DNA of 64,000 bases, taken from NCBI RefSeq assembly GCF_000769655.1, contig NZ_CP008887.1, positions 1,364,001-1,428,000 of the forward strand, in the 5' to 3' direction. The translations under genes and the position numbers were made by a program. The DNA is from Thermococcus eurythermalis. GTDB lineage: Archaea; Methanobacteriota_B; Thermococci; Thermococcales; Thermococcaceae. Below are positions 45,569-51,144 of this stretch, in pieces. Position 1 is the first letter of the stretch. Each line of letters begins with the position of its first letter. The notes under the pieces are model-generated. The model did no database searches. It was given only the letters and a program-made list of their open reading frames with translations, and had not been told where the DNA came from.

Positions 45569-46468
45569 TCAGTAGGGGAACTCGACCCCCATGTCCTTCG
45601 CGACCTTGCGGAGGTTCTCTATCCTCTGCTCGGTCGGCGGGTGTGTGGCAAAGAGCTGGGAAACCCCCTCGCCCTCGAAGTGGTTCACTATGAAGAGGTG
45701 CGCCAGTCCGGGGTTGCCGAGGGGCTTTTTCTTCTTGACCTCAGCTTCTTTTTGAAGCTTTTTAACCGCCTCATCAAGCTTGAGCAGTGCACTCGCGAGG
45801 GCCCAGGGTTTTCCGCTGAGTCTGGCGCCGCCTTCGTCGGCCGCGAACTCCCTCCGTCTGCTTATAGCCGAGCGGATTATTATGGCCGCTATAGGGGCTG
45901 TTATGGCGATGAGGATGGCGTAGATGAAGCGATCGAGGCTGAGGTCGCCGAAGATGGCCTTGAAGAAGGCCAGGTACTTGGTTACGTAGGCTATGTAAAC
46001 CACCGCTCCGGTCAAAGCGCCGGCTATCGTGCCGACCAGTATGTCGTGGTTCCTTACGTGGGTCAGCTCGTGACCCAGGACACCCTCAAGCTCGTCCCTG
46101 TCCAGGAGTTCGAGAATGCCAGTCGTTACCGTTACTAGGGCGTGCTTGGTGTTTCTGCCCGTGGCGAAGGCGTTCGGTGTCGGGTCATCGATTATCGCTA
46201 TCTTTGGCATCGGGAGGCCGGCCCTTTTGCTGAGCTTCTCGACTATCTCGTAAAGCTCCGGCGCCTCGTCCCTGCTCACTATCCTGGCCTTCATCATCTT
46301 GATTACGAGCTGGTCGCTGTACCAGAAGGAGAGGAAGCTCATTCCGACGGCGAACCAGAACATGTATGTCATCCACCTGGCGCCGCCGAGGAGGTAGCCC
46401 ATGGCCATCAGAACTCCGGTCAGGAGTCCCATCATAAAGGCAGTTCTCAGAAACAGCACCAACTTCAC
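45569..46468 (-). CDS. htpX: HtpX-type M48 membrane metalloprotease (copy 1)
   Basis: The 299-residue protein starts at GTG 46466-46468. Two TM segments at the N-terminus and two central ones (about 145-195) surround the catalytic HExxH (LEGVLGHELTHVRNHD). The third ligand Glu follows in RREFAADEGGARLSG. The family degrades damaged membrane proteins. It is one of three htpX-derived sequences within six kilobases and is the more divergent of the two intact copies. Confidence 0.93.
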   Translation of the reverse strand: MKLVLFLRTAFMMGLLTGVLMAMGYLLGGARWMTYMFWFAVGMSFLSFWYSDQLVIKMMKARIVSRDEAPELYEIVEKLSKRAGLPMPKIAIIDDPTPNAFATGRNTKHALVTVTTGILELLDRDELEGVLGHELTHVRNHDILVGTIAGALTGAVVYIAYVTKYLAFFKAIFGDLSLDRFIYAILIAITAPIAAIIIRSAISRRREFAADEGGARLSGKPWALASALLKLDEAVKKLQKEAEVKKKKPLGNPGLAHLFIVNHFEGEGVSQLFATHPPTEQRIENLRKVAKDMGVEFPY

Positions 46469-46559
46469 TTAAATTCATCTTCTGCTTTGTACTTCAGCGG
46501 GTCCCTTTAGAAACCTTTCGGTCGCTTCAAACGAACCATAAATTGAGGGAAAAAGAACC

Positions 46560-46703
46560 TCAGAAGTAAATTCCCATCTCCTCGGCTAGAGTTCAGTGGT
46601 AACTGCAACAACAGCGTGCTTCGCACTTCTTCCTTCGGCATCGAGAGATGGCTCTCTCTGTCTAGCTGCCTCTTGATTGGTTGTTTTCCTTTCATCAGCT
46701 TCT
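46560..46703 (-). pseudogene. deleted remnant of an htpX gene (type of copy 2)
   Basis: On the minus strand three blocks of htpX are recognisable in order. LSMPK matches LPMPK of the intact gene, [13 protein letters not shown] matches [13 protein letters not shown], and AEEMGIYF followed by a stop matches the [10 protein letters not shown] end. Between blocks one and two about 15 codons are missing, and between two and three nearly all of the catalytic half including HExxH is gone; frames also differ. The sequence is closer to the gene at 50266 than to the adjacent one at 45569. Upstream decay makes the 5' limit uncertain. Confidence 0.8.
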
Positions 46704-46914
46704 TTCTTCGTAGGGCCAATACGTATCACAATTCCTGATCTTTGTCTTCAATTATAACTTCAGCTGTCTGCTCTTACCCAATTGTCGTATCCCGAAGGAT
46801 CCGGCAAAATTAAAGGTTTTAAACTATAATTTTACGAAAATGTTAAATCCAACCAATTAGTAGTATTTTTTGCCGAGTATATGCGATGAGGCAAATGACT
46901 AAGGGGAATGTGCA
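46704..46914. other. AT-rich spacer and promoter region before the RiPP precursor
   Basis: No gene is visible. GGTTTTAAACTATAATTT near 46814-46831 and GTATATGCG near 46878 are possible TATA boxes for the cassette. From here to 48400 the sequence is clearly more A+T-rich than the flanking chromosome. Confidence 0.4.
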
Positions 46915-47010
46915 ATGGAGGTTCTCGAGTTGAAGGCTATTATTCCCCCGGTAACGCCGAGCTCGGGAGGTTCTGGCAACCACTGCTGCTGCAATGTTAG
47001 CACGACTTGA
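46915..47010 (+). CDS. 31-residue RiPP precursor peptide with CCC core
   Basis: ATG 46915 follows AAGGGGAATGTGC. The leader (MEVLELKAIIPPVTPSS) ends in a double glycine and the core region reads SGNHCCCNVSTT, with three adjacent cysteines near the end followed by Asn, Val, Ser and Thr. The gene lies 54 bases upstream of a radical SAM/SPASM maturase and an ABC exporter, the expected order for a ribosomally made, post-translationally modified peptide. Thioether linking of Cys to a neighbouring residue is the likely chemistry; the exact class is unknown. It is too short for routine gene callers. Confidence 0.8.
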   Translation: MEVLELKAIIPPVTPSSGGSGNHCCCNVSTT

Positions 47011-47064
47011 TTGCAGCTTCTATTTGTTTTTAATTTTTACATGTACTGCAATGGGGGGATCTAC

Positions 47065-48407
47065 ATGAGGTTGGGGATCCACATTGTGTCATATCCGGTT
47101 GGTAACGATAAATACGTAGCGTTCGATCCATTAAGCAGAGCGATTATTATATTAAACAAAAATGAGAAAGAAATTCTCGAAAAATTTCAGAATAATGAGA
47201 AATGTCTGCTATCTGAATATGAGAAGCAGGTTATTAAAGACATAGAAGAAGTAGTACGTAAGAAGCGTGAGGAGACTACTACTAAGGCTCTATCATTTGA
47301 GTCACCGAATCCAGTTATGATGGTTCTAATGGTATCTCAAACCTGTAATCTAGCATGTAAGTATTGCTATGCCCACAGTGGCACCTACAACAATCCTGGT
47401 CTCATGAAGTTTGAAATTGGAAAAATGGCATTGGATGTTGCTGATGAATTAGGGATAACTAATATTCAGTTTTATGGGGGAGAACCTTTAATGAATTTCA
47501 GATTGATAGAAAAATTGATTGAATATGCAGATAATGCGGGATATACATTCAAATATGGGATAATTACCAATGGGACCTTAATAACCGAAGAAATCGCCGA
47601 GTTTTTTAAACAGCATGAGTTTGACGTTACTATAAGCATTGATGGGCCCAAGGAGATTAATGATATTAATCGTGTTTATCCTGATGATACTGGCACACAT
47701 GATGATATAATTCGTGCTATTGATCTTTTAAATGAGAGGGAAGTTCCTCTAGCACTTGAAATTACTTATGCTAGGAATTATGTTAAAATACACTCAATAT
47801 CAGAGATACTAGATTGTCTTAGCAGATTCTCTAAGACTTTCATAGTAGGTTATGTATTCCCCACTATAGATGGAAAGAAACAAGAATATGAACCAACAGA
47901 GCAGGAAGTTGCAGATATGATGGTGGAGCTTGTAGACTATTTGTTTTCAAAGTGGGAACAGGGTATCCCTATAAAAGAAATGGGAACCTGCATGATTCTT
48001 CGGGAGCTTCTTAGTCTCACATATTACATAAAAAATGCATATGTCCTGAGCTCCCCGCAAGACTTACTGTGTTTTATGATGGAAAAGTGTATCCCTGCCA
48101 TCAAGTGTACTTAGACCACCGATTCTATTTGGGAGAGATTGTAGATAAAGATTTTTCCAAAATGCTGGAAAATAGATTTGAACGTGTGATAGGGAATTTC
48201 TCGATATCAAAACTATCTCTAAATCCTGGAGATAAGTGGATGGCTAGTGTTTGTAGTTTCTGTAAAGCTCATTTGGATGAAATTGGAGGCAAATACTATC
48301 TAAGATATGCCAAAGCCTATCAAAAATCACTGGACCGCATAATATATAATATCGCCACCCGAGATATGAATACAGTTATAAAAACGTTGGGTGGAATGAT
48401 AATATGA
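47065..48407 (+). pseudogene. radical SAM/SPASM peptide maturase, one-base frameshift
   Basis: ATG 47065 is preceded by GGGGGGATC. The N-terminal 65 residues look PqqD/RRE-like (VAFDPLSRAIIILNKNEKE), then the cluster motif CNLACKYCYAH (C94, C98, C101), GGEPLMN and ITNGT motifs follow. Around 48054 the frame is lost in CTCCCCGCAAG. In the -1 frame the protein continues RLTVFYDGKVYPCHQVYL and later CSFCKAH, the SPASM cysteines, to a stop at 48405-48407. One extra C in the C4 run would restore one protein of about 447 residues. The stop overlaps the exporter start (ATGA). Confidence 0.85.
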
Positions 48408-50071
48408 ATAACAATGTCCATAGGGTTCTCCAGATTGGGCTCGCACACAAGCGCTACACTGTTCTTCTGATAGTCCTCGGAGCGCTCTCGACCCTCCTCT
48501 CGGCGATGGTGCCCTTCTACCTAAGGAACCTGTTGGCAAACCTTGAAAATCTGAGCACGCGGGAGATTCTCGGCTATATCGGGATAATCGTCCTTCTCTA
48601 CACGGCTTCGACAATCGTTTACCTCTACGGCGGTTTCGTGAGTAACTTCGCCGAGACTAAGGCGGCCGCGTGGCTCAAGCGGAAGCTCTTCATCTCAACG
48701 CTCCTCTCCGAAAACCTCGACACGGGGGATGCACTCTCTCGCATTCAGTCCGACACAGAGATAGTCGGTCGGATGGGTATGTCTCTAATTCCGGCTGTGG
48801 TTATCGAAGCCTTCTCGCTCCTCGTTTCGGTCATCGTCGTCTTCAGGCTGAACTTTTACCTTGGGGTCATAACTCTCCTCACCCTGCCGGTCTACGGCTT
48901 CTCGCTGAGGACCTTCGTGCACGGGCTCAAAACGGCCTCTGCCGAGGAGAGGAAGCGCTACGCAGAGACGGTGGAGTACTTCAAGGAGGGGCTCGACGGC
49001 AGGCTCGATGCAAAAACGCTGAACGCCTTCGATTACCTCGTGGACAGGGTCTCGAAGAAGCTCGACGAATGGGTCGAGGCATCGAAGAAGGTGGCCTTTT
49101 ACAGTTCGGCCAACTACGGCCTTCAATCTTACCTCTCGACGATTCTCCCGCTTCTGGTCCTCCTCTCCGGAGTTGTTCTCGTCAAGAACGGCATGGCGAC
49201 GCTCTCCTCCACCGTGGCCGTCTTCTCCTACCTCGGAAGGGTCTACTACCCGGTTGAGCGCTTCGCCTTCCTCTGGAGCAGCTACCACCGCGCCGTTCCA
49301 ATCATTGAGAGGATATGGGACGTCATTGAAAGGGAAACACCGAAACTCGAAAAGCCCTCCTGCTCGCCGAAATCCTACGATATTGAGCTGAAAGACGTTT
49401 CCCTGTCCTATGAGGATTCAAAGGTCCTCGACGGAATAAGCGGGAGAATTCCGGAGGGCAGAAAGGTCGGCATCGTCGGGGCATCGGGCGTTGGGAAGAC
49501 TACGCTCGCCCTGATTATGGCGGGAATCATCGAGCCAACCGAGGGGAGCGTAAGCGTCGGGGGCTGTCCTCCCTTAGCCCTTCTCGGTGATTCGCTCATC
49601 TACGTTCCTTCTCACCCCTACCTCTTCACGGGAACTCTGCGCGAGAACCTGACCCTCGGCAGGGAAATCCCGGACGAGAGGTTGAGGGAACTCCTGAGGG
49701 CCGTTGAACTTGAGGAGCTCGACCTCGACTACCGGATTGAAGAAGGGGGTAAGAACCTCTCGCTGGGGCAGAGGCAGAGGATTGGCCTCGCGAGGGCCCT
49801 CGCTCGAGACCCGAGGATTCTGATACTCGACGAGGCGACGTCGGGCATGGACTCCGAGAGGGAGGCGAGGATTTTAGAGCGGCTGATGGAGAGGGATATG
49901 ACGTTAATCGTCATCTCCCACAGGCTCTCGACTGTCCGCGGAATGGAGGAGATATGGGTCCTCGATAACGGAGGAATCGTCTGCAGGGGAACTCACGGGG
50001 AGCTGTTCGAGGACTGCCCGCGCTACCGCGAGCTTTTCAGGGAGCAGGAGGAAGCAACAGGACTCCTATAA
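48404..50071 (+). CDS. ABC exporter (TM-ATPase fusion) of the RiPP cassette
   Basis: The 555-residue half-transporter has six TM segments (about 15-280) and an ATPase domain. It shows Walker A GASGVGKTT near residue 360, signature LSLGQRQRIG, Walker B ILILDEATSGMD and the switch His in IVISHRLS. No C39 peptidase domain precedes the TM part. ATG 48404 overlaps the maturase stop. Its codon use is GC-rich like the host chromosome, unlike the AT-rich maturase and precursor. It most likely exports the modified peptide. Confidence 0.9.
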   Translation: MNNNVHRVLQIGLAHKRYTVLLIVLGALSTLLSAMVPFYLRNLLANLENLSTREILGYIGIIVLLYTASTIVYLYGGFVSNFAETKAAAWLKRKLFISTLLSENLDTGDALSRIQSDTEIVGRMGMSLIPAVVIEAFSLLVSVIVVFRLNFYLGVITLLTLPVYGFSLRTFVHGLKTASAEERKRYAETVEYFKEGLDGRLDAKTLNAFDYLVDRVSKKLDEWVEASKKVAFYSSANYGLQSYLSTILPLLVLLSGVVLVKNGMATLSSTVAVFSYLGRVYYPVERFAFLWSSYHRAVPIIERIWDVIERETPKLEKPSCSPKSYDIELKDVSLSYEDSKVLDGISGRIPEGRKVGIVGASGVGKTTLALIMAGIIEPTEGSVSVGGCPPLALLGDSLIYVPSHPYLFTGTLRENLTLGREIPDERLRELLRAVELEELDLDYRIEEGGKNLSLGQRQRIGLARALARDPRILILDEATSGMDSEREARILERLMERDMTLIVISHRLSTVRGMEEIWVLDNGGIVCRGTHGELFEDCPRYRELFREQEEATGLL

Positions 50072-50265
50072 AATTTCAAGGATGAAGCTGTGGGCATTTG
50101 TTCATACCGCTTAAACATGCTTATGAAAAAATCAAACACCTTCAAATCCAAGACCAATGGGTTAAAGACCTCAAGAGATAGCTTTGGGGTCTTAAGGACC
50201 AAGTCAAAAGATTTGTGCAAAAAGAAGCTCAAAGTAGTCATTCTCGATAGCAAAACTAAGAAAAT

Positions 50266-51144
50266 TCAGAAGACGGGCGCGTAGCCCATTTCCTCCGCTA
50301 TCTTCCTGAGCCTCTCGATTCTCTTCTCGGTCGGCGGGTGCGTTGAGAACAGCTCTGCAATGCTCATGCCCCTGAATGGGTTCACGATGAACATGTGGGC
50401 CGTTGCAGGGTTTCCTTCCCTCATCGGCCTGTACCTGACGGCCTGCTCAATCTTCATGAGGGCCCTCGCGAGCGCCCAGGGCTTTCCGCTGATCTTTGCA
50501 CCGCCTTCGTCGGCCAAGAACTCCCTGGAGCGGCTTATGGCCGCCTGAATGAGCATCGCCGCTATCGGGGCTAGAATGGCCACCAGTATTGCGGTGAGCA
50601 CGTTGTTCGCGTCGTCCTCGTCCCTCCCAAAGCCGCCAAATATTGCTATCCACCTGGCCCAGTAGGCGAGCTGCATTATGGCTCCGGCCATCGCGGCCGC
50701 CACAGTCCCGATGAGTATGTCGCGGTTCTTTATGTGGGTCAGCTCGTGGCCGATAACGCCCTCAAGCTCGTCCCTGTCGAGGATTTTGAGCAGCCCCGTG
50801 GTCACGGCGACGACCGCGTGCTTCGGGTCCCTTCCCGTGGCGAACGCGTTAGGCGTCTCGGTCGGGATTATCGCCACCTTCGGCATCGGAAGGCCCGCCC
50901 TCTCAGCGAGGTTCCTGACTATCGCGTATAGCTCCGGGGCTTCCATTTCATCAACTATCCTCGCGTTGTACCAGCTGAGGACGATTTTATCGCTGTACCA
51001 GTAGGTTATGAAGTTGAACAGCATTGAAAAGAGGAACATCATGAAAGCCACATTTGGCCCGCCGAAGAGGTAGCCTATACCCATGAGCAGTCCCGTGAGG
51101 ATGGCCATCAGCAGGCCGGTTCGAAGCCACATCACGAGTCCCAT
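50266..51144 (-). CDS. htpX: HtpX-type M48 membrane metalloprotease (copy 2)
   Basis: This is a 292-residue zinc protease with N-terminal TM pair ([19 protein letters not shown]), HExxH in [16 protein letters not shown], two central TM segments and the third ligand in [15 protein letters not shown]. It shares most residues with copy 1. It is the closest relative of the remnant at 46560 and lies in the same orientation, so the two bracket the RiPP cassette as direct repeats. The 194 bases between it and the exporter hold no convincing gene. Confidence 0.93.

Follow-up and report, generated by a model that had tools for sequence, protein, structure and literature searches.

Upstream of genes for a radical SAM enzyme and an ABC exporter in Thermococcus eurythermalis lies a 31-codon open reading frame (ORF), and the locus raises the question of whether these three genes form a RiPP cassette and, if so, what the enzyme makes of a core with three adjacent cysteines. 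A sequence-only reading of the window (the whole stretch of DNA analysed, 64,000 nucleotides) had proposed an archaeal RiPP cassette composed of a CCC-core precursor, a radical SAM maturase and an exporter, and had suggested looking for conserved precursors 5' of homologous maturases. We found such precursors at five other loci, four in Thermococcaceae and one in a Bathyarchaeota MAG, and the core of the proposal is upheld. The sequences establish the three-gene unit, the conservation of its precursor, the family of the enzyme and the type of exporter, and the CCC peptide is probably modified chemically by the radical enzyme and exported. The best reading is of a rare, unnamed archaeal family within the radical SAM RiPP kind, which is already known. 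We consider it likely that the unit is a rare, horizontally moving cassette that works by leader binding, thioether formation and export, as set out below.

Conservation of the precursor

The precursor gene, encoding the 31-residue peptide MEVLELKAIIPPVTPSSGGSGNHCCCNVSTT, lies where it had been placed, at 46915 to 47010 on the forward strand, and is the only CCC-containing ORF among the 622 ORFs of 20 to 70 amino acids in the 64-kb window. Orthologues were found directly 5' of the maturase at L022 (MKSLDLKAIIPPVAPSAGGSGNYCCCNKVNTN), L026 (MKSLELKAIIPPVAPSAGGSGNYCCCNKVNTN), L024 (MEVVELKAKLPPVAPSAGGVGLACCCDKVGTGK), L025 (MEVVELKAKLPPVAPSAGGVGLACCCDKVGK) and the Bathyarchaeota MAG locus L021 (MNNVKVVNAKAKLPELTPSSGGGGFICCCDSVK), and the order precursor, maturase, exporter recurs in four other Thermococcaceae genomes, spanning two genera of the family, and in the MAG. 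A GGxGxxCCC[ND] block, which runs from G18 to N27 in the window (46966 to 46995, forward strand), is invariant in all six precursors and closes a longer consensus, K-A-x-[IL]-P-x-[VL]-[AT]-P-S-[SA]-G-G-x-G-x-x-C-C-C-[ND]. The strictly conserved reactive side chains of the core are those of Cys and Asx, and the tail beyond CCC[ND] differs between loci in both length and sequence. At one more Thermococcaceae locus (L023, genome G076), no precursor is left 5' of the maturase, and a transposase-like gene is found there instead.

When 396 archaeal genomes were searched with a DNA pattern for GGxGxxCCC[ND], five of the six genomes with a maturase gave matches, exactly those in which the region 5' of the maturase is intact. 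The 390 other genomes gave a single chance match, which has an in-frame TGA stop. Substitutions between precursor loci are mostly synonymous: L022 and L026 differ at 9 of 22 synonymous and 1 of 74 non-synonymous sites (pS 0.41 versus pN 0.01), and pN was likewise far below pS between the window and L022 (0.13 versus 0.77). By these measures, the precursor is evolving under purifying selection. Comparison of the precursors with NCBIfam, Pfam and PHROGs returned no matches.

Two putative transcription signals flank the gene. An A/T-rich element resembling GAAA-N-TTTAAAT (CGAAAATGTTAAAT; 46835 to 46848, forward strand) aligns 5' of the precursor at five Thermococcaceae loci and may be a BRE/TATA-like promoter element. 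After the precursor stop, a U-rich tract at 47020 to 47039 (forward strand), where T-rich runs occur at five of five Thermococcaceae loci, is a probable leaky archaeal terminator. Such a terminator between precursor and maturase would leave more precursor message than enzyme message, and the U-rich tract fits the expected excess of precursor transcript.

The maturase and exporter of the window

As sequenced, the window maturase is split into two ORFs. The 5' ORF (47065 to 48114, forward strand) encodes a predicted N-terminal RRE-like domain and the radical SAM core (PF04055, 2e-20; homologues 54 to 62% identical), including the CNLACKYC motif that had been pointed out, and its homologous reading stops near 48030. 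The 3' ORF (48069 to 48407, forward strand; conserved reading from about 48036) encodes the auxiliary-cluster domain, with GX4C and CSFC, and scores 18.7 bits against SPASM, below the cutoff. Nucleotide and both-frame alignments with L022, L026 and L024 place a 1-nt deletion between them, in an A-run at 48028 to 48036 (forward strand; ATAAAAAATGC), where the window reads ..TAC ATA AAA AAT GC.. and L022 reads ..CAT GTT AAA AAA TGC.., so that the radical SAM core and the C-terminal cysteines are read in different frames. With the maturase frameshifted, the earlier statement that the locus contains the complete logic of a modified-peptide system in a hyperthermophile does not hold for this genome as sequenced. 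The SPASM cysteines ascribed to the maturase are present, but they lie in a separate ORF from the radical SAM core and make up a reduced set rather than a full seven-cysteine SPASM.

Relative to L022, the 5' piece is 65% identical (pN 0.23 versus pS 0.72) and the 3' piece 60% identical (pN 0.25 versus pS 0.71). Since both pieces are equally well conserved, the break would be either recent or a sequencing error; that is, the pathway appears either to have been lost recently in this genome or to lack a base in the assembly only. Among the other five Thermococcaceae maturases, that of G037 has an independent single-base frameshift (C3 to C4; L026:6260-6330), in an assembly that is a 390-contig draft.

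The exporter gene (48404 to 50071, forward strand) is joined to the maturase by an ATGA overlap, as had been described, and encodes a 555-residue protein with a TMD and an NBD. PF00664 and PF00005 are its sole Pfam domains above cut-off, and the same search found no C39 peptidase domain on it; nor is there a protease within the cassette. The double-glycine leader end noted earlier is present as -GG-, but cleavage there by the exporter is unsupported because the exporter has no C39 peptidase. An exporter is present at every locus, with identities of 63 to 100% between Thermococcaceae loci (73% and 66% for the window protein against those of L022 and L024, respectively). In the Bathyarchaeota MAG, an in-frame stop separates the membrane portion of the exporter from its ATPase portion (L021:3706-5415).

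A real, if less favoured, possibility is that the window unit is a decaying remnant, in which the maturase is a pseudogene and the exporter alone is kept, perhaps as immunity against peptide-making relatives. The frameshift itself is consistent with such decay, as is L023, which has no precursor but still encodes the same exporter protein as L024, and among the Thermococcaceae loci examined two have a broken maturase but none a broken exporter. However, the precursor and both maturase pieces are under purifying selection relative to L022 and carry no other lesion, so the window break would have to be very recent, or else a sequencing error beside the A-run. Such decay would be a matter of the window copy and does not conflict with our preferred reading of the family as a mobile RiPP cassette.

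The maturase family and its proposed chemistry

The close maturases were found in five other genomes among the 94 of Thermococcaceae, and a more distant one, 45% identical, on a single Bathyarchaeota MAG contig; a profile search was positive in 6 of 396 archaeal genomes. Neither the class of that MAG (257 genomes) nor its phylum (398 genomes) yielded a maturase locus beyond it. Viral contigs contained distant radical SAM proteins only and no precursor, and plasmids had no relative above about 30% identity. Bacterial genomes were scanned by exact peptide words from the window alone, which leaves room for bacterial relatives.

The CX3CX2C radical SAM motif is invariant across the homologues, and no NCBIfam equivalog reached its own cut-off with the maturase. 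The best family was the PapB ranthipeptide maturase (NF047865), at 159 to 161 bits for intact homologues versus a cut-off of 340, followed by the Nif11, CcpM and SCIFF maturases; the SCIFF maturase model TIGR03974 gave 124 to 128 bits and missed its cut-off of 425. CteB (5wgg) is the closest solved sequence. An AlphaFold model of the L024 maturase (pLDDT 89, from an alignment of 17 sequences) also had CteB as its best fold match (5why: E 4e-21, TM 0.71 to 0.75; 5wgg similar, E about 1e-20 and TM about 0.7), the match spanning 460 columns. The N-terminal 64 residues of the model are predicted to form three strands and two helices (beta-beta-beta-alpha-alpha), an arrangement that fits an RRE, taken here as a winged-helix of three strands and three helices. 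In its sequence and predicted fold, the maturase resembles thioether synthases of the CteB/PapB type.

Of the full-SPASM pattern (CX9-15GX4C - CX2CX5CX3C - C), the CX2CX5CX3C block is absent from the CCC-family maturases; in related genomes, paralogues with a full SPASM domain have CxxCPIRxYCGGGCIY as this second cysteine block. CCC-family maturases have three invariant cysteines after the core (C-x-[ED].., GxVYPC and xFC), with a fourth auxiliary cysteine in the window/L022/L026 clade only, and on this cysteine count the domain is better called reduced or twitch-like than SPASM. In our tree, the CCC maturases group with the reduced-domain enzymes of L027 and L053 in one branch (support 99/99), and the CCC clade alone has support of 82/88.

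In the working that we propose, a leader of about 19 residues (..LELKAxxPPVxPSSGG) would be bound by the RRE-like domain, the radical SAM core would generate a 5'-deoxyadenosyl radical for hydrogen abstraction from an acceptor residue of the core peptide, and a CCC cysteine, perhaps on the auxiliary Fe-S cluster, would close the thioether. Because the maturases have only three invariant Cys ligands, the auxiliary-cluster site may be open to a substrate cysteine, as it is in CteB (PMC8172795, PMC8326336). The ABC exporter would then export the product, and a protease would remove the leader. The peptide may serve to antagonise relatives, and the exporter might provide immunity as well.

Sactipeptides have a Cys thioether to an alpha carbon, and ranthipeptides to a non-alpha carbon. 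With an Asn or Asp invariant after CCC and GGxG invariant before it, both the non-alpha (Asx) and the alpha-carbon (Gly) modes are possible. The acceptor is most likely the Asn/Asp right after CCC, which would give a ranthipeptide-like C-C-C-[ND] ring, and the GGxG glycines are the alternative. Non-alpha-carbon acceptors are known from NxxcA (Cys-Asn), freyrasin (Cys-Asp) and CteA (Cys-Thr) (PMC8326336), and streptosactin has Cys-Ser/Gly links at alpha carbons (PMC8172795). Weighing against the proposed working are the frameshifted maturases of the window and L026, auxiliary cysteines that would serve a single cluster only, unlike those of CteB, family scores that are all far below curated cut-offs, and the lack of a protease in the cassette.

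A thioether is only one of the possible products, since C-C links, epimers and ethers are also formed by radical SAM maturases of the superfamily. The cassette might instead introduce a crosslink between carbons, an epimerisation or some other modification, while CCC stays in the thiol form for metal binding or for disulfides after export. Besides the chemical diversity of the superfamily, this would suit three adjacent invariant cysteines, which look like a metal-binding or disulfide motif, and a twitch-like domain, which is common to enzymes of several chemistries; our literature search also found no thioether precedent with three adjacent donors. We nevertheless judge it unlikely, given that most of the families closest to the maturase in sequence and fold form thioethers (PapB, SCIFF/CteB) and that, apart from Asx, no reactive side chain of the core other than Cys is strictly conserved. 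A bolder form of the preferred thioether reading, which we put forward as doubtful, has all three adjacent cysteines as thioether donors, with the invariant Asx and the glycines of GGxG as acceptors, joined by a maturase with a single auxiliary cluster into a compact polycyclic heat-stable peptide. If true, this would be a new RiPP class and, to our knowledge, the first example of a thioether RiPP in hyperthermophilic archaea. That the precursor is instead a chance small ORF 5' of an orphan radical SAM enzyme with another substrate is scarcely credible: small ORFs are common (622 in the size range above), but a peptide that is kept in other genomes is not a chance ORF, and its recurrence at five other loci, its codon-level purifying selection and its tie to maturase-bearing genomes refute this explanation.

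Among known systems, those of ranthipeptides (PapB/CteB-type; SCIFF, freyrasin) are alike in having a radical SAM core, a C-terminal auxiliary Fe-S domain, a Cys core with a possible Asx or Thr acceptor and, by prediction for the CCC maturases, an N-terminal RRE-like domain, and they supply both the best HMM (PapB) and the best fold match (CteB). The CCC family differs from them in being archaeal, in its reduced auxiliary domain, in its adjacent rather than spaced cysteines and in scoring far below cut-off. The SCIFF precursor has six cysteines in forty-five residues, whereas the window precursor has three and matches neither SCIFF nor any other NCBIfam model. Sactipeptide systems with twitch-type maturases (SKF/SkfB, thurincin H/ThnB) share the single auxiliary cluster domain after the core, the exporter and, by prediction for the CCC maturases, the RRE but are distant in sequence and have cores with spaced cysteines. 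Streptosactin (GggABC) likewise has a short precursor, a radical SAM maturase, Ser/Gly acceptors in a Gly-rich core and an ABC gene of a family that the exporter also matches; however, GggB gave 66 to 81 bits versus 650 and GggC 137 versus 750, and streptosactin has a SPASM domain and no CCC. Also related are the archaeal radical SAM cassettes L027 and L053, with the same maturase branch, the same reduced auxiliary domain and an exporter next door, but exporter identity is about 30%, L027 has precursors of the ITACSGEA..CGGxGP type, with two spaced cysteines followed by GG, and at L053 no precursor was recognised.

We found no description of this CCC-type archaeal radical SAM RiPP family in the open library of papers that was searched. 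A genome-mining survey of archaea lists radical-SAM RiPP clusters as a class, and the products made in that work were lanthipeptides, tested on haloarchaea (PMC12144867). Since no curated model matched and no describing paper was found, we count the family as new within the known radical SAM RiPP kind. Small and delimited, with intact copies, a defined core and a reduced-auxiliary-domain enzyme, it could help to show how much an enzyme can do with one auxiliary cluster, how neighbouring cysteines are dealt with and whether peptides of this kind serve as weapons between hyperthermophilic archaea.

Genomic setting and other RiPP-like loci

The cassette is present in 6 of 94 Thermococcaceae genomes, in differing surroundings. 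In the window it is flanked by two reverse-strand genes outside the cassette, htpX-1 (M48 protease; 45569 to 46468) and htpX-2 (50266 to 51144), which are adjacent to each other at the empty sites of the cassette-free relatives G039, G017, G013 and G031. Alignment of the window with G039 stops at 46529 and restarts at 50259, with 20 bases of G039 between the two aligned parts. At the left edge of the insert, 46551 to 46660 (reverse strand) is a relic of an htpX 3' part, a degraded second copy of the 3' part of htpX-2, of which 46551 to 46586 matches the htpX 3' region of L065 at 97% and in which tblastn detected HtpX2 residues 98 to 118. The cassette of G023 likewise abuts htpX-2, and so cassette and htpX-2 sequence may have entered the lineage together by homologous recombination. 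The G+C content of the maturase is 36%, versus 54% for the window. On this sequence evidence, the cassette is rare and horizontally mobile.

HtpX was considered, as an operon flank, for the role of leader protease and was set aside: the L024/L025 and L026 loci have no adjoining HtpX, and the empty sites show it to be an old neighbour. A padloc search gave matches at superfamily level only (viperin core, ABC ATPase), leaving an anti-phage reading unsupported.

Other RiPP-like loci were seen alongside the CCC family. The L027 cassette (L027:5161-8811, genome G077) has two near-identical precursors of 44 to 47 amino acids (..TTYIRANKFIGITACSGEA..CGG.GPNPT..) and a third that has diverged, followed by a 491-residue reduced-domain radical SAM enzyme and a 557-residue ABC exporter; a related maturase also occurs in G076 (L019). 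At L028 to L031 (G093, G085, G070 and G054), tandem small Cys-rich ORFs with a cysteine at about every fifth residue (CIDYDYCVWDDCGKFDVCIYDNC..) adjoin full-SPASM radical SAM enzymes (280 bits to PapB at L028) and ABC genes. The window genome itself has a possible second RiPP system about 4 kb to the right of the window (L003:1299-2769), where a 39-residue ORF with three cysteines (..SGCQVPPNFYGCPNLCITINDEESE) lies 5' of a 428-residue radical SAM/SPASM enzyme (CefB-like, 222 bits versus a cut-off of 600) and a membrane protein. A third system of RiPP-like appearance may be encoded at L005:1027-2665 of this genome, where a 55-residue ORF ending ..PPLCAGRECNSSAWAIFGF lies 5' of a 477-residue radical SAM protein and an ABC ATPase.
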